From the NCBI RefSeq assembly GCF_013205025.1, contig NZ_JABMLE010000002.1, positions 514,353-578,352 on the forward strand: a stretch of 64,000 bases of DNA. The letters run 5' to 3'. The DNA comes from Rathayibacter sp. VKM Ac-2857. Its GTDB lineage: Bacteria > Actinomycetota > Actinomycetes > Actinomycetales > Microbacteriaceae. Position numbers and translations under genes: made by a program. Below are positions 1 through 61,239 of this stretch, in pieces; position 1 is the stretch's first letter, and each line of letters opens with the position of its first letter. The notes under the pieces were generated by a model. That model searched no databases and had not been told where the DNA came from. It was given only the letters and a program-made list of their open reading frames with translations.

Positions 1-2058
1 CTTGATGCCCTTGCGCCAGGCGTAGATCTGCGCGCGGTTGATGTCGCGGGTGGTCGCGGTGTCCTTGAAGAACAGCGTCAGCGAGAGGCCCTGGTCGACG
101 TGCTGCGTCGCCGCGGCGTAGGTGTCGATGATCTTCTCGTAGCCGATCTCGTACGCGTCCTGGTAGTACTCCAGGTTGTCGTTCGTCATGAACGGCGCCG
201 GGTAGTAGACGCGGCCGAGCTTGCCCTCCTTGCGGATCTCGATCTTCGACGCGATCGGGTGGATCGAGGACGTCGAGTTGTTGATGTACGAGATCGAGCC
301 GGTCGGCGGGACGGCCTGCAGGTTCTGGTTGTAGATGCCGTGCTCCATGACCGAGGCCTTGAGCGCACGCCAGTCGTCCTGGGTGGGGACGGCGATGCCG
401 GCCTCGGAGAAGAGGCGGGAGACGCGCTCGGTGGAGGGCGCCCACTCCTTCTCGGTGTAGGTGTCGAAGAACTCACCCGAGGCGTACTTCGAGTCGGCGA
501 AACCGTCGAAGGTGGTGCCGCGCTCGATCGAGATGCTGTTAGAGGCGCGCAGGGCGTGGAAGAGCACCGAGTAGAAGTAGATGTTGGTGAAGTCGATGCC
601 CTCCTCGGATCCGTAGTGGATCCGCTCGCGGGCGAGGTAGCCGTGCAGGTTCATCTGGCCGAGGCCGATGGCGTGCGACTTGTCGTTGCCGTCCTCGATG
701 GAGCGCACCGAGGTGATGTGCGACTGGTCGGACACCGAGGTGAGGCCGCGGATCGCGGTCTCGATGGTGCGGCCGAAGTCGGGCGAGTCCATCGTCAGCG
801 CGATGTTCAGCGAGCCGAGGTTGCAGGAGATGTCCTTGCCGATGCTGTTGTAGGAGAGGTCCTCGTTGTAGGTCGTGGGGGTGTTGACCTGGAGGATCTC
901 GGAGCACAGGTTGGACATGTTGATGCGGCCCTTGATCGGGTTCGCCTTGTTCACCGTGTCCTCGAACACGATGTAGGGGTAGCCCGACTCGAACTGGATC
1001 TCCGCGATGGTCTGGAAGAACTCGCGCGCCGAGATCTTGGTCTTCTTGATGCGCGGGTCGTCGACCATCTCGCGGTACTTCTCGGAGATCGAGATGTCGC
1101 CGAAGGGCAGGCCGTAGACGCGCTCGACGTCGTACGGGGAGAAGAGGTACATGTCCTCGTTGTTCTTCGCGAGCTCGAACGTGATGTCGGGCACGACGAC
1201 GCCGAGGGAGAGCGTCTTGATGCGGATCTTCTCGTCGGCGTTCTCGCGCTTGGTGTCGAGGAAGCGCAGGATGTCCGGGTGGTGCGCCGAGAGGTACACC
1301 GCTCCCGCACCCTGGCGGGCGCCGAGCTGGTTCGCGTAGCTGAAGCTGTCCTCGAGGAGCTTCATCACGGGGATGATGCCCGAGGACTGGTTCTCGATCT
1401 GCTTGATCGGCGCGCCGGCCTCGCGGATGTTGGAGAGCGAGAGGGCGACGCCGCCGCCGCGCTTGGAGAGCTGCAGCGCGGAGTTGATGCCGCGGGCGAT
1501 CGACTCCATGTTGTCCTCGATGCGGAGGAGGAAGCAGGAGACGAGCTCGCCGCGCTGGGCCTTGCCCGTGTTGAGGAAGGTGGGGGTCGCGGGCTGGAAG
1601 CGGCCGGCCACGATCTCCTCGACGAGGGCGATCGCGAGCTTCTCGTCGCCCTGGGCGAGGCCGAGGGCCGACATGACGACGCGGTCCTCGAAGCGCTCGA
1701 GGTAGCGCTTCCCGTCGAAGGTCTTCAGCGTGTACGACGTGTAGTACTTGAAGGCGCCGAGGAAGGTCGCGAAGCGGAACTTCTTCGAGTAGGCGAGGTC
1801 GTTCAGCTCCTGGATGAAGTCGAACGAGTACTGGTCGAGGACGGCCTTCTCGTAGTACTCCTTCTCGACCAGGTAGTCGAGGCGCTCCTTGAGGGAGTGG
1901 AAGAAGACGGTGTTCTGGTTGACGTGCTGCAGGAAGTACTCGCGCGCCGCCTCGCGGTCCTTGTCGAACTGGATCTCCCCGTTCGGGCCGTACAGGTTCA
2001 GCATCGCGTTGAGCGAGTGGTAGTCCATCTGCGCGGCGTCCCGGGGGGCGTCGATCAC
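1..2058 (-). CDS. nrdE: Ribonucleotide reductase class Ib, large subunit NrdE (partial, 3' end cut off)
   Basis: Alpha subunit of the class Ib ribonucleotide reductase, which reduces ribonucleoside diphosphates to deoxyribonucleotides in the cytoplasm. Near the N-terminus it reads [46 protein letters not shown] and the catalytic-type NLCSEI motif follow in order. It leaves the left edge in [16 protein letters not shown], so about 30 residues of a usual ~715 are missing. The start chosen is GTG at 2058, which overlaps the nrdI stop as GTGA; the in-frame ATG at 2028 is the alternative. It is third in nrdHIE. nrdF, the radical-generating subunit, would be expected just past the left edge. Confidence 0.95.
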
Positions 2059-2471
2059 TGCTGCGTCCAAAACGAGTCCAATCCTTCGTCGACGGCGCGG
2101 ACGTCGTCGGGTGTGCCGAATACTTCGAAACGGTAGAGGTGCGGCACCTCGCACTTGCGGGCGATGATGTCGCCGGCGAGGCAGTAGGCCTCGCCGAAGT
2201 TGGTGTTGCCGGCGCCGATGACGCCGCGGAGCAGGGCGCGGTTGCGCGGGACGTTCAGGAAGCGGATGACCTGCTTGGGGACCGCTCCCCCGCCGTTCCC
2301 CCCGCCGTAGGTGGGGAGCACGAGCACGTACGGCTCGTCGACGTGGAGCGTGTCGACCGCGGCGCCGTCCCGCCGGGAGTGCAGGGGGATCTGCTGCGCG
2401 GGCCGCCCGAGCTTCTGCATGAAGCGGTGGGTGTTGCCCGAGCTGCTCGAGAAGTACACGAGTCCGCTCAT
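2055..2471 (-). CDS. nrdI: NrdI flavodoxin-like protein of class Ib ribonucleotide reductase
   Basis: Small FMN-binding flavodoxin-like protein (138 residues) that supplies the oxidant for assembling the dimanganese-tyrosyl radical cofactor of NrdF. The N-terminal [16 protein letters not shown] is the phosphate-binding loop region. [20 protein letters not shown] and the [18 protein letters not shown] segment are typical of NrdI. ATG at 2471 gives the normal N-terminus MSGLVYFSS; the open frame runs further upstream, but the extra sequence is low-complexity and falls in the intergenic hairpin region. It overlaps nrdE by 4 bp, so the two are probably translationally coupled. It is separated from nrdH by 250 bp containing a long structured repeat. 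Confidence 0.95.
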
Positions 2472-2623: not shown

Positions 2624-2727
2624 CTCTGGGGCGGCTGGATGGTGAGCTGCAAGGCGGAGGAGGAAGCCGTAGCTGCGCTACGGCGCCCGACGACAACGCC
2701 GCAGATCGCCGTCCAGACGCCTCAGAG
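2624..2727 (-). repeat. Structured dispersed repeat, copy 1 (long imperfect hairpin, nrdH-nrdI)
   Basis: A 104-nt sequence folds into one long interrupted hairpin. The outer arm 2624-2640 pairs with 2711-2727 (16 of 17, counting G-T wobbles). The next helix, 2641-2650 with 2701-2710, pairs 9 of 10. GGCG pairs with CGCC after an AA bulge, and an 8-bp apical stem (GCCGTAGC/GCTACGGC) closes a 3-nt loop. The 70-nt core 2641-2710 aligns without gaps to 6061-6130. It covers the last codons and stop of nrdH, so it would be transcribed in the nrdHIE mRNA. Attenuation, RNA processing or a mobile palindrome are all possible. Confidence 0.8.
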
Positions 2728-2940
2728 AGCGGAGATCTTGTCGGGGCGGAAGCCGGACCAGTGATCGTCGTCCGTGATGACGACCGGCGCCTGGAGGTAG
2801 CCGAGGGCCTTGACGGCGTCGAGGGCCTTCTCGTCGACGGAGAGGTCGAAGATCTCGTAGTCGATGCCCTTGCTGTCGAGGGCCCGGTAGGTCGCGGTGC
2901 ACTGCACGCAGGAGGGCTTGGTGTAGACCGTCACAGCCAT
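2722..2940 (-). CDS. nrdH: NrdH glutaredoxin-like redoxin
   Basis: A 72-residue glutaredoxin-like protein with thioredoxin-like activity that delivers electrons to NrdE. The active site CVQC lies at residues 11-14 in [14 protein letters not shown], and the substrate-side motif WSGFRPDKI near the C-terminus is diagnostic of NrdH. It is first gene of the nrdHIE operon, with AAGGA just upstream of the ATG at 2940. The stop codon lies inside the base of the 104-nt hairpin described separately. The protein ends at SAL, a few residues earlier than many homologues; whether the repeat trimmed the gene is inference. Confidence 0.95.
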
Positions 2941-5667: not shown

Positions 5668-6042
5668 CCGCACTCGTCCCGCCGCGTCCACTCGCAGACC
5701 GACTCGCCAGCAGCTTCACGAACAGACGCCGAACGGGCTCCGGCTCGCGCACACAGCCCGTTCTGCGTCCATTCGACGTCCACACGCCGCACGAACGGAC
5801 GCGAACTGGGGGCCGACACTCGCGCATGCCCCGGCACGCGTCCACTCGCGGATCGACCCGTCGCCGCCTCCTCGAAGAGACTCGACATGGGGTCCGTCTC
5901 GTGCGCAGACCCCCGCACGCGTCCACTCGACGGCCACGGCCCGCACGAATGGACCCGATCGGGGCGCAGGTAGACGTGCAGACCCCATCGCGCATCCGAT
6001 GGTTCCCACGGCGGGCGGCAGGCGGCCCGACTCCGGCAAACC
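5668..6042. repeat. Decayed short interspersed repeats
   Basis: No credible gene. The stretch contains several degenerate copies of an approximately 75-bp motif that reads either GCGTCCACTCG or its complement-like CGAACGGACGCGAA. Copies of the GCGTCCA motif are near 5687, 5766, 5838 and 5919. Related wording recurs at about 4665 and in 17640-17930. The copies are too diverged to give exact unit borders. Confidence 0.5.
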
Positions 6043-6148
6043 GCCCGCGGGTCTCCGCGCGGTGAGCCGCAAGGCGGAGGAGGGCGCGATACCGGCGGTA
6101 TCGCGCCCGACGACAACGCCGCGGATCGCCGTGCGGAGGCCCGCGGGC
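6043..6148 (-). repeat. Structured dispersed repeat, copy 2 (3' end of HemD-like gene)
   Basis: A 106-nt partner of the repeat at 2624-2727. The core 6061-6130 matches 2641-2710 in length and at most positions outside the apical stem. The apical stem here is GCGATACC/GGTATCGC extended by two G-C pairs, so base pairing is kept although the sequence differs. The outer arms (6043-6060 with 6131-6148) pair almost perfectly but are unlike those of copy 1. The hairpin begins immediately after the TAG stop (6149-6151) of the minus-strand gene. Confidence 0.8.
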
Positions 6149-7330
6149 CTAAAGCGGAGTGGCGAGGCGGAAGCCGCGCTTGATCACGGTGGCGACGAGG
6201 CGGGGCTCCGGGAGGGCCTGGCGGAGGCGGCTGATCGCGACGTCGACGGCGTGGTCGTCGAGGGGCTCGGGGGCGGCGGCGGCGAGGACGGCGCGGGCGA
6301 CGGTGGCGCCCTCGGCGGCGACCAGGGTGCGGAAGAGGGCGAGGGCGACGGGGGTGAGGGCGACGCGGGTGCCCGCGAGCACCGCGTGCCGACCGCGCAG
6401 CTCGAGGGGGCCGAAGTCGGTGTCGATGCGGGGGGCGGACTGCTCGAGGTGCTCGCAGGTGAGGCGGATGAGCGCGCCCATCCGGAAGCGGTCGGGGACG
6501 ATCGGCAGAATCTGCGCCTCGACGAGCGGGGCGGCGGTGACCGGGCCGACGGCGGCCGCGACGACGGTCTCGCGGAAGGCGGCCTGGAGCTCGTCGAGCC
6601 GGCCGGCCGCCTCCGCGACGGTGAACAGCGCCTCGACGGCGGGCGCGCTGGTGAAGGTGACGGCGTCGAGGCCGCCGCAGCAGATCGCCTCGATCAGCCG
6701 GAGGACGCGGGCCGAGTCCTCGTGCGCGCTCCAGCGGTAGGGGGCGGCGGTGAGGACGGTCGCGCCGGCGTCGGTGAGGCGCTGCAGCTGCGCCGGGTCG
6801 GTGAAGCCGTGCAGCTGGACCGCGACGGTGCGGCCGGCGGCGCCCTCGCGCAGGGCGAGGTCGACGAGGGAGGTGGTGGTCTCGCGCTCGCTCATGCCGT
6901 GGTCGTCGAGGCCGGCGGCGCGGATCGCCCCGCGCGCCTTCGGGCCGCGGACGAGGATCCGGGCGTCGGAGAGCGCGTCGGTCAGGTCGTCGCCGAGGCC
7001 CGCGGCGTCGGCCGCCTCGAGCCAGCGGCGCATGCCGTAGGAGGTGGTCGCGAGCAGGACGTCGGGGCGCGCGGCGACGATCGCGCGGGTCTCCGCCTCG
7101 AGGACGCCCTCGGTGTCGACGCCGCGCATCCGGATGGTGGGCGCGTGGGTGACGTCGGCGCCGCGGCGCTCGAAGGCGGCGATCAGGTCCTCGGAGCGGC
7201 GGTCGGAGGTGACGCCGATGCGGAAGCCGACGAGCTGGTCGGCGCGGAAGCCGGGCGACGCGGCGTCGGGATCGGGTCCGTCGGCGCCGGTCGCCGGCGC
7301 GCCGGCCGCTCTCGCCTCGGTGCCGGTCAT
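6149..7330 (-). CDS. Uroporphyrinogen-III synthase-like protein with C-terminal winged-helix domain
   Basis: A 393-residue two-domain protein. Residues ~30-290 match the HemD fold (GFRIGVTSDRRSEDLIAAFERRGA; TFTSAPAVEALF). Residues ~300-393 form an OmpR/PhoB-type DNA-binding domain (VALTPVALALFRTLVAAEG ... DVAISRLRQALPEPRLVATVIKRGFRL). Such fusions are known in Actinobacteria beside nitrite/nitrate assimilation genes and are usually treated as regulators. It lies 19 bp upstream of cobA's stop side, downstream in the nirB-cobA direction. Whether it still makes uroporphyrinogen III is unclear. Regulation of the neighbouring nitrate genes is inferred from position. Confidence 0.85.
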   Translation of the reverse strand: MTGTEARAAGAPATGADGPDPDAASPGFRADQLVGFRIGVTSDRRSEDLIAAFERRGADVTHAPTIRMRGVDTEGVLEAETRAIVAARPDVLLATTSYGMRRWLEAADAAGLGDDLTDALSDARILVRGPKARGAIRAAGLDDHGMSERETTTSLVDLALREGAAGRTVAVQLHGFTDPAQLQRLTDAGATVLTAAPYRWSAHEDSARVLRLIEAICCGGLDAVTFTSAPAVEALFTVAEAAGRLDELQAAFRETVVAAAVGPVTAAPLVEAQILPIVPDRFRMGALIRLTCEHLEQSAPRIDTDFGPLELRGRHAVLAGTRVALTPVALALFRTLVAAEGATVARAVLAAAAPEPLDDHAVDVAISRLRQALPEPRLVATVIKRGFRLATPL

Positions 7331-7349
7331 CAGCGGCCCCCTCGGGCGG

Positions 7350-8405
7350 TCACAGGGTGAGCGCATCGACCGCGCGGGCGATGCTCTCGGGATCCTGAGC
7401 ATCATCGCACGCCGCCTGGCGCACGACCTCGCCGATCACGATGACCGCTGGCGAGCGCGGAGCCAGCTCGGCGAGCAGGCCGAGCACCCCGCCGACCGAG
7501 GAGATCGTGGTGCGCTGAGCGTGCGACCAGCCGCGCTCGACGATCGCGAGCGGCATGCCGGCCGGCATCCCGGCGCGCTGCAGCCCCGCGACGAGGTGCG
7601 GGAGCGTGTTCACGCCCATCAGCACGACCAGCGTCCCGCCGAGTCCGGCCAGGTGACCGAGCTCCTCCTCGCTGAAGGGCGCGTGGCCCGAGACCACGGT
7701 GAACGCGCGGCTGACCTCGCGGTGCGTGACCGGGATGCCGGCGGCGGCCGGGACCGAGATCGCGCTCGTGACACCGGGAACGATCGTGAACGGCACGCCG
7801 GCGACGCGGCAGGCGCGCACCTCCTCCGACCCGCGGCCGAAGACGAACGGGTCGCCGCCCTTCAGCCGGACGACGTCGAGCCCGTCGAGGGCGCGGGCGA
7901 CCATCAGCCGCTCGATCTCGTGCTGCGGCACGGCGTGGTGCCCGGGCGTCTTGCCGACGTCGATCAGCTCGGCGCCGGGCGCCCAGTCGGCGAGGCCGTC
8001 GTGCGGGCCGAGGCGGTCGAAGAGCACGACGTCGGCCTCGCGGAGGGCCCGGTGGGCGGCGAGCGTCATCAGCTCGGGGTCGCCGGGTCCGCCGCCGACG
8101 ATGCTCACGTGCCCGACGGGGCGGTGCGCGGCGGGCGCCTCGTCGACGACCCAGACACCGTGCCGGGTGGCCTCCGCGGCCGCGGCCGAGCGGAGCGACG
8201 CGGCGCCCTCGACCCAGGCGAGCAGGGCGGGACGGCCCGCGGGCAGGAGCGACGCGGAGGCGAGGCGCAGGCAGAGCGCGTCGTCCGCGTCCCAGCGCTC
8301 CACGAGCGCGCCGGCCGTGCGGTAGCGGGCGAGGACGCGGCGGGTGCCGACGACGCTGCCGACGACGAGGACGCGGCGGCCGGTGAGATCGACGGAGAGC
8401 TGCAT
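7350..8405 (-). CDS. cobA: Uroporphyrinogen-III C-methyltransferase with shortened CysG-like N-domain
   Basis: A 351-residue protein. Residues ~100-345 are a complete SUMT domain that methylates uroporphyrinogen III at C2 and C7 with SAM to give precorrin-2. It has VSIVGGGPGDPELMTLAA, RLKGGDPFVFGRGSEE, VPGVTSAISVPAAAGIPVTH and VLMGV. Residues 1-~95 look like a Rossmann remnant of the CysG precorrin-2 dehydrogenase (LTGRRVLVVGSVVGTRRVLA). This part is short and lacks the usual GGG-x-V-A dinucleotide motif. ATG at 8405 overlaps the nirB stop as TGATG, implying coupling. Role: siroheme for NirB. Confidence 0.9.
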   Translation of the reverse strand: MQLSVDLTGRRVLVVGSVVGTRRVLARYRTAGALVERWDADDALCLRLASASLLPAGRPALLAWVEGAASLRSAAAAEATRHGVWVVDEAPAAHRPVGHVSIVGGGPGDPELMTLAAHRALREADVVLFDRLGPHDGLADWAPGAELIDVGKTPGHHAVPQHEIERLMVARALDGLDVVRLKGGDPFVFGRGSEEVRACRVAGVPFTIVPGVTSAISVPAAAGIPVTHREVSRAFTVVSGHAPFSEEELGHLAGLGGTLVVLMGVNTLPHLVAGLQRAGMPAGMPLAIVERGWSHAQRTTISSVGGVLGLLAELAPRSPAVIVIGEVVRQAACDDAQDPESIARAVDALTL

Positions 8406-17575: not shown

Positions 17576-18012
17576 GAGCGGGCGACGGCGCCGCCCCGCC
17601 GTGTGCGGATTCTGCTGCCTCCGACGTCGCGGACCAGCAGAGATCGTCCGACGGGCTCGACCCCGAGGCGCCCAGGCGGTCGCGTCCAGCGCTTCCGCGA
17701 GGCGCCGCGTCACTCGCCGCGCAACGCGGGAGGACGTCCGCGAGCGGACCCGAACCGGGCGCCGGAGGCTGTGCAGAACCCGTTGCCCGTCGTCTCGCCC
17801 GCTGCGCCCCGCACGAGCGGACCCGAACGGGGCATCGGCAGAGGTGCAGGCCCCCGTGCGCGTCCAGTGGCCACGAAGGCGACGACCCGGAGCGCCTCCT
17901 CGACGCGGGCCGGCGCCCCGACCTGTGACCCGTTCGCCACTTTCTGCTGCTTCGGCCCCCGCATTCCAGCAGAGAGTGCCGAACGGATCACCGATACCTG
18001 AGGCTCGCGGGC
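17576..18012. repeat. Non-coding spacer with decayed short repeats
   Basis: This 437-bp convergent gap shows no credible gene. It contains degenerate copies of the motif family at 5668-6042: GCGAGCGGACCCGAACCGGG near 17739, CGAGCGGACCCGAACGGGGC near 17815, and GCGCGTCCAGTGG near 17860. The order resembles a partial unit of the same family. No clear terminator with a T tract was found here. Confidence 0.45.
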
Positions 18013-25605: not shown

Positions 25606-25957
25606 CCCCGGCGCTGCATGCTCACCGGCCGACCCGCAGGCGCCGCATGCTGGTCGAGTAGCCCCGGAGGGGCGTATCGAGACCCACCCGCTGCAGAACG
25701 GCGGATCTCGATACGCCCTCTGCGAGGGCTACTCGATCAACATGAAGAGACGCCCTCTGCGAGCGCGGCTCGATCACCATGCAGGCGGATCATGCTGGTC
25801 GAGTAGCCCGCAGGGCGTATCGAGACCCGCCCCCGCCAGCACTCCCACCCCGCATTGATCCGATCCGGAGCCTCGCTCGTTATCCTCTGAGAGCGCCTCT
25901 CAGGCGTCTGCGCCCTCCCCGGCGCGCCACCCCGCGATCAGAACGAGAGACGCCACC
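25606..25957. repeat. Palindromic REP-like elements between mntH and the DUF3105 gene
   Basis: This 352-bp gap holds one short inverted pair (25646-25744), starting CATGCTGGTCGAGTAG and ending CTACTCGATCAACATG with only a ~35-bp spacer. A single half-element lies at 25791-25829, and a degenerate piece at 25751-25780. The last ~100 bp carries the promoter of the following gene; I see no other feature. Confidence 0.8.
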
Positions 25958-28036: not shown

Positions 28037-28869
28037 CCGACGAGCAGGGACCCGGACCCGGCTACCGGCGTCGCCCGACCGGCGGACGGACCGAAGGACC
28101 GGCGGACCGCTCACTCCCCGCCGCGGACAGCGCCCTCCTGCGCGAGCGGACCGGCATCGTCTGGACCGCGTCCTCGATCGAGTGGCACCGCCTCGTGGCG
28201 ACCACCACCGAGCGCGCCCGCTTCCGCTTCCGCGCCTCGCTGCCCGACCTGATCTGGAACGCCGCGGCGCTCGAGGGCAACACCTTCACCCTCCCCGAGG
28301 TGCGGACCCTCCTCGAGGGCGTGACCGTCGGCGGCAAGCCGCTGGCCGACGAGGAGCAGGTCCTGGCGTTGAGCGAGGCCTACAGCGATCTGGACCAGCT
28401 GGTCGGCCGGAGCGCCTTCGCCCTCCGCAATGACGTGTCGGACGCCCTCCACACAACGGTCGCGGCGAAGGAGGCGATCGAGTCCGGCCACTTCCGCGGC
28501 GAGGGAGCCGTCTCCGGCGGCGGCAGCGTCCGCCTCGCCAACGGCGGCTTCGTGGCCGGGGTCGAGCACGGGCCCGAGGGCGGGGCACTGATCGAGCGCT
28601 TCGACTCTCTCGTCCGCTTCCTCGAGACCCTCCCCGACCCGCGCGAGCGCGCGGTGGCCTACTTCGCCGCCGCAACGCGCAGCCAGTTCTACTTCGACGG
28701 CAACAAGCGCACGGCGAGGCTGATGATGTCGGGAGTGCTGATGAGCGCCGGCGTGGACGCCGTCAACATCCCCTACAGCCGCCGCCTCGAGTTCAACCGG
28801 GCTCTCGACGAGCTGTTCGAGACGGACGACGCGACCGCCCTGATGCGCTTCGTCGTCGACTGCGCCTGA
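28033..28869 (+). CDS. Fic/DOC-family protein with non-canonical catalytic motif
   Basis: A 278-residue Fic-domain protein. Fic enzymes transfer AMP or other phosphate groups to target proteins through the motif HPFx(D/E)GNGRxxR. Here the motif reads Q218-F-Y-F-D222-G-N-K-R-T-A-R229: the catalytic His is Gln and the NKR part is Doc-like. An inhibitory-helix-like motif (S/T)xxxE(G/N) appears as AAALEGN with E81, the Ser/Thr replaced. The start GTG 28033 overlaps the XRE gene. The protein may be catalytically altered, use another chemistry, or be a pseudo-enzyme. Confidence 0.8.
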   Translation: MTDEQGPGPGYRRRPTGGRTEGPADRSLPAADSALLRERTGIVWTASSIEWHRLVATTTERARFRFRASLPDLIWNAAALEGNTFTLPEVRTLLEGVTVGGKPLADEEQVLALSEAYSDLDQLVGRSAFALRNDVSDALHTTVAAKEAIESGHFRGEGAVSGGGSVRLANGGFVAGVEHGPEGGALIERFDSLVRFLETLPDPRERAVAYFAAATRSQFYFDGNKRTARLMMSGVLMSAGVDAVNIPYSRRLEFNRALDELFETDDATALMRFVVDCA

Positions 28870-30788: not shown

Positions 30789-31266
30789 CGCTCGACCATA
30801 ACCCCGGCCGCCGACACCGCCCGCGGCTTCCGCCCACGGCGAAGATGTGCTCAGCGGCGCGCGCTCGGCGGCTGCCCGGCCGGCCATGACGGGCCGCCTT
30901 CCGCGGACTCCGCTCACCGGGTCTCGATACGCCGCGTCCCGCGGCTACTCGACCAGCATGGAAGGCGTGCGGTCCGGCTGACCGCAGACCTGCTGCCGGA
31001 TCATGCTGGTCGAGTAGCCGCCGCCGGCGGCGCATCGAGACCCGGAGGCAGCCGCGCAGCGCCCACAGCATGCTGGTCGAGTAGCCCCGCAGGGGCGTAT
31101 CGAGACCCGCCGTCACCAGCACGGCGGGTCTGCAGACTCGCGTTCTGACGCTGGTGGATCTCGATACGCCCGCTTCGCGGGCTACTCGATCAACATGAGC
31201 GGCCCGCGATGCGGGCTACTCGATCAGCATGGGGGCACCCCCGTACCGACGAGCCAGGGAACGACA
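30789..31266. repeat. Cluster of REP-like palindromic elements
   Basis: The gap before the exporter gene holds several elements of the GTCGAGTAGCCC family. Single halves are at 30921-30960 and 31002-31045, a complete inverted pair at 31069-31198, and a partial half at 31201-31231. The full pair starts CATGCTGGTCGAGTAG and ends CTACTCGATCAACATG. The exporter promoter must lie at the left end (about 30789-30900). No gene was found. Confidence 0.8.
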
Positions 31267-36625: not shown

Positions 36626-36691
36626 CGCGAGGCGGACGCTCCTCCCGGCGCGCGCACCCCATGCCGACGCGCCTCGCGGCGCCGGTCTTCT

Positions 36692-36981
36692 TGTTGATCG
36701 AGTAGCCCGCGCAGCGGGCGTATCGAGATCCACCACCGTCAGAACGCGAGTCTGCAGCCCCGCCGTGCTGGTGACGGTGGGTCTCGATACGCCCCTGCGG
36801 GGCTACTCGACCAGCAAAGCCGCGCCCGGGCTCCGTCTGCGGCGCGGCGCCTCATGTTGATCGAGTAGCCCGCGCAGCGGGCGTATCGAGATCCCCCAGC
36901 ATCAGAACAGGAGTCTGCAGACCCGTCGTACTGAGGACCGCGGGTCTCGATACGCCCCTTCGGGGCTACTCGACCAGCATG
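36692..36981. repeat. Two REP-like inverted pairs (convergent gap before the VOC gene)
   Basis: Two full ~125-bp elements occur at 36692-36817 and 36855-36981. Each begins TTGATCGAGTAGCCCGCGCA and ends with GGGGCTACTCGACCAGCA. Both share the middle wording GAGTCTGCAG and a CACCGTC/GACGGTG inner pair. They fill the 36626-36998 gap between two convergent genes; nothing else is visible there. Confidence 0.85.
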
Positions 36982-36998
36982 AAGGCGAACTCCACCGC

Positions 36999-37376: not shown

Positions 37377-37741
37377 CTGCACGCGCTCATCCTGCACCGA
37401 GCCGCTGACGACCGTGGGTCTCTTAGGAAAGATCACCTAGTACGTATGGGGAAAGCCATGTTGATCGAGTAGCCCGCGGAGCGGGCGTATCGAGCGGAGG
37501 GGGCGCCTTCGGCGCCAGCGCAGGGCGGGGAAGAGACCGACGTTCATGCGGTGGTGGGTCTCGATACGCCCCTTCGGGGCTACTCGACCAGCATGCTGCG
37601 GGCGTCTCTTCCAAGTAGATCCACCACCGTCGGCGGTCACGGCTGACGACCGCGGGTCTCGGTGCGCCCCTCCGGGGCTACTCGACCAGCATGGACGAGC
37701 ACGCGGGGCGGCCTGCTCGAGATCCGCAGACGGGGGCGGGG
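37377..37741. repeat. Repeat-filled gap: 45-bp element plus REP-like halves
   Basis: This 365-bp gap contains a 45-bp element at 37416-37460 that recurs inverted at 55437-55481 (41 of 45 identical). It is followed by REP-like halves at 37457-37497, 37556-37594 and 37655-37692. The VOC promoter must lie here. No gene was found. Confidence 0.75.
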
Positions 37742-55194: not shown

Positions 55195-55219
55195 CGCGCA
55201 TCCGCGTTGCAGTCCTCTC

Positions 55220-55551
55220 CATGCTGGTCGAGTAGCCCCGCAGGGGCGTATCGAGCGGCGAAGCCGCTTCGCGTCTCGGTGGTGAGGGAAAGGACCCGGC
55301 TGCGCCGCGTCATGCTGGTCGAGTAGCCCCGCAGGGGCGTATCGAGACCCACCGTCACCAGCAGGACGGGTCTGCAGACTCAGCGTTCTGACGGTGGTGG
55401 ATCTCGATACGCCCGCTGCGCGGGCTACTCGATCAGCATGACTTTCCCCATACGGATGAGGTGATCTTTCCTAAGAGACCCGCTGTCACCTGCACGTCCG
55501 GCGGAAGTGGATCTCGATACGCCCGCTCCCCGGGCTGCTCGATCAGCAGGC
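55220..55551. repeat. REP-like elements and 45-bp element (55195-55557 gap)
   Basis: One half-element lies at 55220-55255, a complete ~130-bp inverted pair at 55311-55440 and a further half at 55510-55551. The 45-bp element at 55437-55481 abuts the pair's CATG end and matches 37416-37460 inverted. The gap separates two convergent genes; no other content was seen. Confidence 0.85.
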
Positions 55552-58054: not shown

Positions 58055-59374
58055 ATGCAGGACTCCTCGCGCGCGATCGTGCGGCCGCTGGACACCGCCG
58101 TCTCTGGCGCCGTCACGGTTCCTGGGAGCAAGAGCCAGACCAACCGGGCGATCGTCCTCGCCCTCGCCGCGCAGGGCACGTCAGTGCTGCGGCGCCCCCT
58201 CCGCAGCGACGACACCCGGCACGGCGCGGCAGTCGCGCGGGCCCTGGGCGCCACGGTCATCGACGAGGACGACACGATCTCGATCACCGGGCTCGGTGCG
58301 TCCCGCCCCGTCGACCGAGCCGAGCTCCACGTCGGCTCGGCGGGCACGATCGCCCGCTTCCTGCCCTGCTTCCTCGCCTTCGGCGGGCCGGGCGAATGGA
58401 CGCTGACCGCGAGCGAGCAGATGACGCGGCGCCCGATGGCCGGCCTGTTCGCCGCGCTGGAGTCGTTCCCCGGCGCGCTCACCGCCCTCGGCGCGCCCGA
58501 GCGCTACCCGCTGCGCGTCCGGGGCGGCGGCCGCGCGCCCGCGGCGATCGAGGTCGACGGCGGCGTCTCCAGCCAGTACCTCAGCGGGCTCCTCCTCTCG
58601 GCGCCGCTGCTCGACCGCGACGTCACCGTCCGTGCGCGGGGCGCCGTCGTCCAGGGCGCCTACGTCGACATGACCGTCGACTCGCTCCGCCGCTTCGGCG
58701 CGACCGTCGAGCGGAGCGCCGACCGCCGCGCGATCACCGTGCATGCGGGACCCACCGCGGCGACCGACCTCGAGATCGAGGCGGACGCGTCGACCGCCTC
58801 CTACTTCGCCGCGCTCCCCGCGATCCTCGGCGGGTCGATCCGCCTGCCGAACGTGTCGCGCGCGAGCCGGCAGCCGGACACGCGCTTCCTCGAGATCCTC
58901 GAGCGGTTCGGCTGCGAGACCGTGTGGGAGGACGGCGGTCGCGGCGCGACCGTCACGCGGCCCGGCGATCTCGACCGGTTGCGCGGTGGCGCGCGGCTCG
59001 ATCTGAACGACTGCTCCGACGTCGCGCTGACGACCGCCGCGCTCGCGGTCTTCGCCGACGCCCCGACCGAGATCGTCGGAGTGGAGCACATCCGCCAGCA
59101 CGAGTGCGACCGGATCGACGCCCTCACCGCCGCGCTGACCGCCTTCGGGATCGAGGTCGAGGAGCGCCCGGACGGCTGGCTGATCCACCCCGGCACCCCG
59201 CGCTTCGCCGCGATCGGCACCCGCGACGACCACCGCGTCGCCATGTCCACGGCCCTCGTCGCCCTCGGCGGCGCCGGCGCCTCCCTCGACCACCCGCGCT
59301 CCGTCGACAAGACCTGCCCCGAGTTCTGGGACCTCCTGACGGGCGTCGGAGCGGACGTCGAGCTGGTCGAGTAG
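58055..59374 (+). CDS. aroA: 3-Phosphoshikimate 1-carboxyvinyltransferase (EPSP synthase)
   Basis: Sixth enzyme of the shikimate pathway, joining shikimate-3-phosphate and PEP (439 residues). It has GSKSQTNRAIVLALAAQGTS, the PEP loop GSAGTIARFLPCF, EQMTRRPMAGLF, VSSQYLSGLLLSAPL and ASTASYFAALPAIL, with DDHRVAMSTALVA near the end. The residue equal to E. coli P101 is Phe, as is normal for actinobacterial AroA. ATG 58055 follows GGAGGAACGGAG. The stop codon TAG and the last residues ELVE are supplied by a palindromic repeat. Confidence 0.95.
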   Translation: MQDSSRAIVRPLDTAVSGAVTVPGSKSQTNRAIVLALAAQGTSVLRRPLRSDDTRHGAAVARALGATVIDEDDTISITGLGASRPVDRAELHVGSAGTIARFLPCFLAFGGPGEWTLTASEQMTRRPMAGLFAALESFPGALTALGAPERYPLRVRGGGRAPAAIEVDGGVSSQYLSGLLLSAPLLDRDVTVRARGAVVQGAYVDMTVDSLRRFGATVERSADRRAITVHAGPTAATDLEIEADASTASYFAALPAILGGSIRLPNVSRASRQPDTRFLEILERFGCETVWEDGGRGATVTRPGDLDRLRGGARLDLNDCSDVALTTAALAVFADAPTEIVGVEHIRQHECDRIDALTAALTAFGIEVEERPDGWLIHPGTPRFAAIGTRDDHRVAMSTALVALGGAGASLDHPRSVDKTCPEFWDLLTGVGADVELVE

Positions 59375-59776
59375 CCCCGCAGGAGCTTCTCGAGACCCGC
59401 CGCCCTCAGCAGAGCGGGTCTGCAGACTCGTCCTTCTGGCGGTGGGCGGATCTCGATACGCCCGCTCCGCGAGCTACTCGATCAGCATGGGGCGGCTCCC
59501 CCCACATGCTGGTCGAGTAGCCCCGCAGGGGCGTATCGAGACCCGCCGTCCTCAACAGACCGGATCTGCAAACTCGTCCTTCAGACGGTGGGCGGATCTC
59601 GATACGCCCGCTCCGCGGGCTACTCGATCAGCATGGGGCGGCTCCCCGACATGCTGGTCGAGTAGCCCCGCCGGGGCGTATCGAGACCCGCCGCCCCAGC
59701 AGGTCAGGTCTGCAGACTCGTCCTTCAGACGTGGGGGGGATCTCGATACGCCCGCTGCGCGGGCTACTCGATCAGC
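59361..59776. repeat. Three-unit array of REP-like palindromic elements after aroA
   Basis: Three consecutive ~130-bp elements lie at 59361-59489, 59505-59634 and 59650-59776. They are separated by nearly identical 15-bp linkers (GGGCGGCTCCCC core). Each starts with CTGGTCGAGTAGCCCCG and ends with GGGCTACTCGATCAGC, apart from one C-to-A change in the first. Inner parts contain GTCTGCAGACTCGTCCTT or a close variant. This occupies essentially all of the aroA-APC permease gap. Confidence 0.9.
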
Positions 59777-59790
59777 GGGGGCTTTCCGCC

Positions 59791-61239
59791 CTAGCGCTCC
59801 GGCTTCGGCGCCGGCTCGTCGGCCGGGTCGGCGTCGAGCGCCTCCGGGTCGACGACGGCCGAGCGGGCGTAGCCGCGCACGCGGCGGTCGATGAAGGTCG
59901 CGAACCAGAGCAGCACGCCGATCACGAGCAGCACGCCCGCGATCTCGTACTGCGCGAGGTCGCGGCCGGAGGTGATCGGCAGCACCAGATAGACGCAGGC
60001 GATCGCGCCGAGCACCGGCAGCACGGTCGGCGTCCTGAAGTGCTTGTGCTCCACCGGCTGGCGCCGCAGCACGAGCACCGCGACGTTCACCACCGCGAAG
60101 ACCGCGAGCAGCAGCAGCGACGTGGTGCCGCCGAGCAGGACCGCGATCGGGTCGGAGGGGTCGCGCGAGACGTACGCGGTGAGCAGCAGCGCGATGACCG
60201 TGGTGAACAGGATCGCCGCCCACGGGGTCCGGCGGCCGGCCAGCACGTTCTTCAGGAACGGCGGCAGCACGCCCTGCTTGCTCATCCCGTAGAGCAGGCG
60301 GCTGGCCATCATCATGTTGATCAGCGCGCTGTTGGCGACCGCGAAGAGCGAGATGAACGGCAGCAGCGTCGAGATCGGGAAGTCGGGCGCGGCCGTCTCG
60401 ACGACCGTGACGAGCGGGGTGTCGTTGCCGGCCAGCTCGCCGATCGGCACGATCGCGACGGCGAGCGTCGAGACCAGCACGTACACGACGGCGGTGATGC
60501 CGAGCCCGGTCAGCATCACCTTCGGGAAGATGCGGCTCGGCTCCTTGGTCTCCTCCGCCATGTTCACCGAGTCCTCGAAGCCGACCATCGCGAAGAAGGC
60601 CAGCGAGGTCGCGGTGCTGATCGCGAGCAGGAGCGACTTGTCCTCGGGCGTCTCGAAGGCCACGACCCGGGAGAAGTCGGCCTGGCCGCCGAAGACCGCG
60701 AAGAAGCAGACGAAGATCACCAGCAGCAGGCCCGACAGCTCGATCAGGGTGAGCACCACGTTCAGGCCGACGCTCTCGGCGACTCCGCGCAGATTCACCA
60801 GCGCGATGCAGACCATGAAGATCAGCGCGATGCTCAGCCGCGTGCCCGCGCCGTCGCCCAGGCCGAAGCCGATCGCGAAGTTGCTCGCGAACGCGCCGGA
60901 CGCGGCCGAAGCCGAGGTGATGCCGCTCGCCATCACGGTGAAGCAGACCAGGAACGTGACGAAGTGGATCCCGAACGCCTTGTGCGCGTAGAGCGCGGCA
61001 CCGGCGGCCTGCGGGAACTTGGTCACCAGCTCGAGGTAGGAGCAGGCGGTCAGCGTCGCGACGACGAAGGCGATCACGAAGGGCAGCCAGGCGGCGCCGC
61101 CCACCTCCGACGCGACCTGCCCGGTCAGGGCGTAGATGCCGGTGCCGAGGATGTCCCCGACGACGAAGAGCAGGAGGAGCTTGGGGCCGAGGACCCGCTT
61201 GAGCTCGGGAGGTGCCGTCTTCTCGCTGGTCGCCGTCAT
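59791..61239 (-). CDS. APC-family amino acid permease
   Basis: A 482-residue membrane transporter with about 12 segments. The first segment has LLFVVGDILGTGIYALTGQVA, the unwound Gly-rich motif of the family. GFEDSVNMAEETKEPSRIFP lies after segment 6, and SRLLYGMSKQGVLPPFL near segment 8. The C-terminus is hydrophilic. GGAGG precedes ATG 61239; the longer frame is low-complexity. Substrate not predictable. The PucR-type regulator at the right edge might control it. Confidence 0.92.
   Translation of the reverse strand: MTATSEKTAPPELKRVLGPKLLLLFVVGDILGTGIYALTGQVASEVGGAAWLPFVIAFVVATLTACSYLELVTKFPQAAGAALYAHKAFGIHFVTFLVCFTVMASGITSASAASGAFASNFAIGFGLGDGAGTRLSIALIFMVCIALVNLRGVAESVGLNVVLTLIELSGLLLVIFVCFFAVFGGQADFSRVVAFETPEDKSLLLAISTATSLAFFAMVGFEDSVNMAEETKEPSRIFPKVMLTGLGITAVVYVLVSTLAVAIVPIGELAGNDTPLVTVVETAAPDFPISTLLPFISLFAVANSALINMMMASRLLYGMSKQGVLPPFLKNVLAGRRTPWAAILFTTVIALLLTAYVSRDPSDPIAVLLGGTTSLLLLAVFAVVNVAVLVLRRQPVEHKHFRTPTVLPVLGAIACVYLVLPITSGRDLAQYEIAGVLLVIGVLLWFATFIDRRVRGYARSAVVDPEALDADPADEPAPKPER

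Follow-up and report, generated by a model that had tools for sequence, protein, structure and literature searches.

The hairpin that follows nrdH in the 64,000-nt stretch of Rathayibacter sp. VKM Ac-2857 analysed here (hereafter the window) belongs to a dispersed family of single hairpins whose pairing is preserved on one particular strand, whose bare copies join stop codons in one fixed orientation and whose sites are occupied in some genomes and empty in others. We propose, with a probability of roughly 0.6, that the family is non-autonomous and mobile, and that its folded '+' strand would be read through a conserved internal loop by a putative trans-acting factor.

Two copies stand in the window (Table 1), the first between nrdH and an nrdI-like gene (both names are taken over from the initial annotation) and the second against the stop codon of a 418-aa gene that we take to be HemD-like with a winged-helix end. 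They share one plan, namely a P1 stem of about 24 bp, an AA bulge, a 4-bp P2, GAGGA facing GACGACAA and an apical stem P3. Folded as RNA, the '+' strand reaches -71.0 kcal/mol in copy 1 (2624-2727; z -8.2) and -95.4 kcal/mol in copy 2 (6043-6148; z -11.2), and for either copy 0 of 200 dinucleotide shuffles were as good; since these folds far exceed the shuffles and compensatory changes are present, the hairpins are not a product of chance. The initial annotation had given the extent of the first copy as 2624-2727, which agrees with the model match, and had aligned the 70-nt cores 2641-2710 and 6061-6130 without gaps, an alignment that holds at an offset of 3420. It was equally right that the apical stems differ while every pair is kept (GCCGTAGC/GCTACGGC versus GCGATACC/GGTATCGC, with both partners changed in three pairs) and that core positions 8 and 63 are compensatory, T-A (2648/2703) standing against C-G (6068/6123). 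The statement that the outer arms are unrelated between copies was wrong: between the two window copies they show 60% identity, and among the eight of this genome's nine copies that are rows of alignment A1 arm identity is 59%, whereas shuffled arms give 36% (sd 1.3%). Within P1 of copy 1, G2646 lies opposite A2705, a purine-purine mismatch that is frequent at that position in our pair-by-pair tally of mismatches and wobbles, which covered 150 copies with full flanks plus the 71-copy alignment. A weak model match on the '-' strand at 28493-28562 (21.1 bits, E 0.0011) may be a decayed copy or chance.

Table 1. Features of the window; P1 to P3 are the stems of the hairpin, from its base to its tip.
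Feature	Position	Strand	Remarks
Element copy 1, whole hairpin, 102 nt	2625..2726	+	99.0 bits, E 7.9e-27 with model R1, which has copies 1 and 2 among its building sequences
P1 5' arm, copy 1	2625..2648	+	Partner is 2703-2726
5' core strand, GC-AA-GGCG-GAGGA (AA bulge, P2 stem, purine-rich internal loop)	2649..2661	+	Conserved
Apical stem P3, GCCGTAGC-TGC-GCTACGGC	2666..2684	+	Variable yet covarying
3' core strand, GACGACAA-CGCC-GC	2689..2702	+	Conserved
P1 3' arm, copy 1	2703..2726	+	Outer end overlaps nrdH stop codon
nrdH, 72 aa, glutaredoxin-like	2722..2940	-	Stop codon 2722-2724, within the outer arm of the element
nrdI-like gene, on far side of copy 1	2055..2471	-	Start 2471 counted from translation
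Element copy 2, whole hairpin, 102 nt	6045..6146	+	95.5 bits, E 8.6e-26 with model R1, which has copies 1 and 2 among its building sequences
Core of copy 2	6069..6122	+	P3 GCGATACC-GGC-GGTATCGC at 6086-6104
418-aa gene abutting copy 2	6149..7405	-	Stop codon 6149-6151
TCTCGATACGCCC...GGGCTACTCGAYCAGCATG repeat	25635-25842, 30903-31233, 36676-36990, 37410-37702, 55213-55551, 59352-59796		

The covariance-model search that the initial annotation had recommended did recover further copies, both within the genus and beyond it. A search of the window's own genome gave nine places, the query included, and all 15 Rathayibacter genomes hold matches, at least 4-20 each, these counts being lower bounds with 150 candidates scored per genome. 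Matches were present in 15 of 199 genomes drawn family-wide (the window's genome and three more Rathayibacter among them) and in 18 of 198 drawn phylum-wide (the window's genome included), under stricter filters that lose weak matches; three genomes in each wide draw match only at E 1e-5 to 1e-3, which may be chance, and some of the weak matches, for instance L252 and L253, are unlike the element in appearance. The exact-core pattern occurs in at least 117 stretches of named genomes, and 16 actinobacterial genera are represented among the 80 matches listed, including Streptomyces, Nocardioides, Pseudonocardia, Kribbella, Gordonia, Micromonospora, Frondihabitans and Subtercola. Outside the class, diverged relatives carry the core GCAAGGCGCGAGGAG ... 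CGACGAGCAACGC. The exact core was also seen in two contigs (L093 and L116) of a metagenome-assembled genome labelled uncultured Clostridiales, of about 63% GC and doubtful host assignment; in L116 it sits within a longer A+T-rich palindrome. A phage or viral origin was rejected, with no blastn match of the element to phages and 0 viral contigs carrying the main core. Two stretches of one viral contig (L295 and L296, IMGVR_UViG_3300022695_000189) match the diverged core pattern.

The initial annotation had read the pattern of changes as selection on structure and had asked for a statistical test of covariation. In alignment A1, which holds 71 of 76 non-redundant copies (four with long inserts and L155 were left out), the 39-pair structure is 84.3% paired and its covariation score is 0.559, compared with 0.183 (sd 0.008) after shuffling and 0.09-0.15 when the structure is slid along the alignment; cells with two-sided change number 663 as against 260 in shuffles, and for both measures 0 of 500 shuffles were as high. 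The count of pairs with two-sided change, 32 of 39, hardly separates from the shuffled mean of 30.1, being reached by 20 of 500 shuffles. These shuffles ignore phylogeny, a point answered in part by the slid control and by the nine orthologous copies of the nrdH site, which score 0.247, a level that none of 500 shuffles reached (0.133, sd 0.012, after shuffling; 0.025-0.048 after sliding), and show nine pairs with two-sided change versus 3.3 in shuffles. Score and two-sided cells are clearly above the controls, in the diverse copies and the nrdH orthologues alike, and selection on structure is thereby supported. Because the nine nrdH orthologues covary above controls, pairing appears to be kept in place, besides during spread, as judged by phylogeny-free statistics. 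The invariance of the core is inflated, as the exact search pattern used to gather copies imposes part of it.

The composition of P1 bears on which strand is folded. At P1 pairs 1-20 of the '+' strand, G-T pairs outnumber A-C by 168 to 7 in 64 Rathayibacter copies, a set that includes orthologues and tandem copies, so that its counts are not independent, and by 347 to 53 in 108 other copies; at some P1 positions a wobble is the commonest pair. The outermost four pairs are free of this excess (2 G-T to 8 A-C in Rathayibacter and 27 to 27 in the 108 other copies). The minimum free energy is lower on the '+' strand in 64 of 64 Rathayibacter copies and in 107 of the 108 others. Given that G-T outnumbers A-C and that '+' folds better, we regard the matter as decided in favour of '+' as the strand kept folded. 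Since RNA tolerates G-U pairs better than DNA does, this strand more likely acts as RNA than as single-stranded DNA.

Could the pairing persist with no selection at all? Imperfect palindromes are known to undergo arm-to-arm correction by template switching, and a process that keeps correcting one arm to the other would find a further argument in the tandem copies at rlmB and guaA. Yet it does not predict that one strand should favour G-T over A-C, and it leaves the fixed internal loop, the recurrent purine-purine mismatch and the wobble positions in P1 unexplained; we consider it highly improbable. The initial annotation had offered as its alternative a palindrome that spreads while its arms undergo gene conversion; of these the spread stands, copies being present in many genomes, whereas conversion alone is disfavoured because it should yield Watson-Crick pairs and no strand preference.

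The placement of the copies is as regular as their structure. Among the 64 Rathayibacter copies (those in the collected loci with at least 15 of 24 P1 pairs, decayed ones excluded), 58 have the stop codon of a '-' gene within 150 nt of the core, at 10-46 nt in 48 copies, at 68 nt in two and at 111-137 nt in eight, the last group lying at about the spacing expected of a second tandem copy. Of the six copies with no gene call, two are at nrdH, whose short gene did not pass the filter, and two are the third in a tandem array; the end of a '+' gene lies on the opposite side in nine of the 64. Bare copies meet the stop codon in one orientation, via the same hairpin end, and the better-folding '+' strand is antisense to the adjoining gene. 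A dedicated promoter for this antisense strand is not evident, since the TANNNT motif occurs upstream in only 1 of 62 stretches.

The same sites can be occupied or empty. Reading the printed sequence (the automatic flag misfired at L269, L270, L274 and L294), we found the nrdH site occupied in 9 of 15 Rathayibacter genomes, the rlmB site in 8 of 15 and the guaA site in 6 of 15, one guaA copy (L283) being decayed; the HemD-like gene site is likewise occupied in some genomes and empty in others. Some empty sites are losses, because one of the nine genomes unoccupied at guaA (L292) keeps a remnant of the element. No target-site duplication was demonstrated around the bare form. At the HemD-like gene end of another genome (L160, in G008) the gene-side arm stands alone, lacking core and second arm, and is ambiguous between a deletion scar and a pre-insertion site. 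That the element inserts into the tips of terminator hairpins already in place was rejected as a general rule: by eye, the empty nrdH, guaA and rlmB ends hold no matching palindrome, and the arms of different loci are related to each other.

A constant place and orientation after the stop codon is also what might be expected of an RNA element that serves the host at gene 3' ends, by protecting or tuning the mRNA end or by blocking antisense transcription, and that is kept for the host's benefit. The order at guaA and rlmB, where by eye the stop codon is followed by the element (present there in tandem copies) and then by an intrinsic terminator, and the compensatory change in place at nrdH would suit such a role. 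So would the position of 42 of 45 array loci beside leading-strand genes, as against 81 of 124 sampled genes (origin by dnaA), although this is suggestive only: one position was counted per array, loci common to several genomes are not independent, contig extents are approximate for G006, G011 and G002, and one locus each in G003 and G002 was left out. Against it, the strand kept paired is antisense to the mRNA with no antisense promoter visible, presence is patchy with empty sites in sister species, and the adjoining genes examined, presumably nrdH, guaA, an rlmB-like gene and one for an ABC permease, are without evident common function. We find a role in the service of the host unlikely, if the most serious of the competing explanations.

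Beyond Rathayibacter the hairpin tends to be part of something longer. With the 99th percentile of shuffled flanks as cut-off, and for copies of known genus whose flanks were long enough, the palindrome extends past P1 in 35 of 36 Streptomyces copies and 16 of 28 copies from other genera, compared with 2 of 63 from Rathayibacter. CTAG-bordered terminal repeats, by a strict criterion, frame 36 of 108 exact-pattern copies (34 of these 108 have no genus label) versus 0 of 64 in Rathayibacter, and the window copies belong to the bare form. S. griseofuscus DSM 40191, for instance, carries a framed copy (L089). By eye, the diverged relatives of distant actinobacteria likewise lie in CTAG-bordered frames, and the CTAG frequently overlaps a stop codon. 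All this is reminiscent of an ordinary MITE-like palindrome of the DDE-transposase type with a CTAG target, in which the core would have no role of its own. But the core persists while the frame sequences differ between genera, the bare Rathayibacter copies keep core and structure with no frame at all, and the frames in Streptomyces plasmids that lack an intact core (L298, L299 and L302) are apparently deletions; we judge this account quite improbable. Streptomyces ends far from any core were not found in the 8-kb loci, a search of low power. In Streptomyces we also observed another palindromic repeat (..CCCCCTG..GAGCGAAGCCGAGA..TTGGGGGA..) lying within the element, in its apical loop or in an arm (L303 2001-2240, also L056 and L101).

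The genes near the copies were surveyed for a possible mover. No protein cluster (ORFs of at least 80 aa passing a codon filter) keeps a constant place near the copies among 107 loci, the largest cluster reaching 14 loci at scattered distances, and a nearby protein partner was rejected on that ground. Seven of 31 PLSDB plasmid records matching one Streptomyces end were examined, and six have no annotated transposase within 2 kb, the seventh being unannotated, in a database whose annotation is incomplete. A RAYT-type Y1 transposase (Y1_Tnp, PF01797) was found in 0 of 15 Rathayibacter genomes and in 5 of 14 control genomes, and a REP-RAYT system was rejected accordingly.

Exactly one reverse transcriptase match was found in 12 of the 15 Rathayibacter genomes; the one protein tested is of retron type by PADLOC and stays below the cut-offs of the NCBIfam retron models. 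Such an enzyme might copy the '+' RNA by reverse transcription, with a nick behind the stop codon as the priming site, and it would fit this that bare copies join the stop by the same end and that one copy in G009 is located about 1 kb from the enzyme gene. The element was sought at 11 of the 12 enzyme loci, with one strong match (L350) and four weak ones (E 0.006-0.86), so that proximity is seen for one of more than 150 copies, and three genomes with no enzyme match still carry 11 (G001), 12 (G002) and 20 copies (G014, a draft). The enzyme moreover has an msr-msd-like stretch of its own, unlike the element: by eye, inverted repeats CCTCCGGGCGA / TCGCCCGGAGG lie upstream of it at 9 of 11 loci, and the hairpin is not what precedes the enzyme as its msr-msd. 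We retain the retron enzyme as a weak lead only and rejected it as the mover, copying by reverse transcription seeming scarcely credible. Among the enzyme loci (L346-L356) is L348, which lies near 646163 of contig C3 in G000; at two others, L347 and L350, the comparable inverted-repeat stretch seems oppositely oriented.

The element is filed under no known family: neither REP-RAYT nor any Rfam family matched, and MITEs are no match for the bare form, in which terminal inverted repeats at CTAG were absent. The whole window gave 0 matches to Rfam 15 (4227 models) at the gathering threshold, the best sub-threshold match of 2600-2750 being to a miRNA model (22.1 of 80 bits), and 20 further loci gave one gathering-level match, a tRNA elsewhere in L311 and off the element. 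With no Rfam match and no RAYT in 15 genomes, the earlier suggestion of an undescribed element has held against described RNA families and REP. A full-text literature search that included the core strings returned no description as judged by title or start of abstract, and the core strings do occur in papers that by their titles concern unrelated topics; subscription papers, preprints and ISfinder may hold a description.

Several systems invite comparison. REP and REPIN sequences with their RAYT (Y1) are dispersed extragenic hairpins, often behind genes, with stem mismatches and wobbles and some of them in tandem, traits that the element shares; it differs in forming a single long hairpin whose internal loop is fixed and whose stems covary freely, and in the absence of a Y1 transposase. 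The framed copies recall MITEs with CTAG or TA targets, which we take to be of the IS630-like kind, in having inverted ends bordered by CTAG, whereas the bare copies are unframed, the core stays constant across differing frames and the structure is strand-specific. BOX, ERIC and RUP are structured, non-coding, multicopy and patchy repeats of about 100-150 nt, and our element of about 100 nt is likewise non-coding, structured, multicopy and patchy, but its core is common to much of the phylum, its antisense placement at stops is fixed and its stems covary on both sides. By analogy one may also think of integron attC sites, which fold as single strands with bulged bases, an unpaired spacer and variable stem sequences, features that the element would match in its own single-stranded fold. 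As a stable hairpin directly after a stop codon it resembles an intrinsic terminator, from which it differs by the separate terminator beyond it at guaA and rlmB and by a better-paired strand that is antisense, the sense strand giving the less stable fold in 64 of 64 Rathayibacter copies. An intrinsic terminator was rejected, there being by eye no T run after the element at these two sites.

We come back to the proposal of a mobile, non-autonomous hairpin. A single '+' strand would be its working form and would fold, as RNA or else as single-stranded DNA; P1 would be free to vary provided that its pairing stays, P2 and the internal loop would be fixed and P3 variable, and a putative trans-acting factor would read the bulge and the internal loop while tolerating nearly any sequence in the helix that carries them. 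Copies would arise at new sites, bare ones directly after a stop codon with '+' antisense to the gene, and elsewhere in actinobacteria the hairpin unit of about 102 nt would sit at the tip of longer MITE-like palindromes, often bordered by CTAG. This proposal has its own difficulties, for no autonomous partner was found and maintenance in place exceeds the needs of a purely selfish repeat. It is tempting, if still doubtful, to go one step further and to see the core as a portable RNA module that several unrelated families of mobile palindromes would have adopted, that would also move by itself to gene ends and that a conserved protein of actinobacteria would read. If this were true, one nucleic-acid domain would recur in different mobile elements and be recognised by its shape, the internal loop being the only part with a fixed sequence. 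The usual explanation of dispersed hairpins in bacteria is a transposase that recognises their sequence, while here the stem sequences are nearly free and what is kept is a shape and a small loop. The conservation of this shape on one strand, across many actinobacterial genera and at one site in nine genomes, points to a putative protein or process of Streptomyces and related bacteria, and the covariance model, the many natural variants and the occupied and empty sites would offer a handle for finding that factor.

The window holds other repeats as well. The palindromic TCTCGATACGCCC...GGGCTACTCGAYCAGCATG repeat is commoner there than the hairpin; its copies face either way, and some of them stand in tandem. 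Two further places, 5719-6002 and 17741-17870, contain imperfect direct repeats of about 57 nt (CGAACGGACGC...CGTCCACTCG) at a spacing of 73-81 nt, and the first of these groups adjoins copy 2 of the hairpin.
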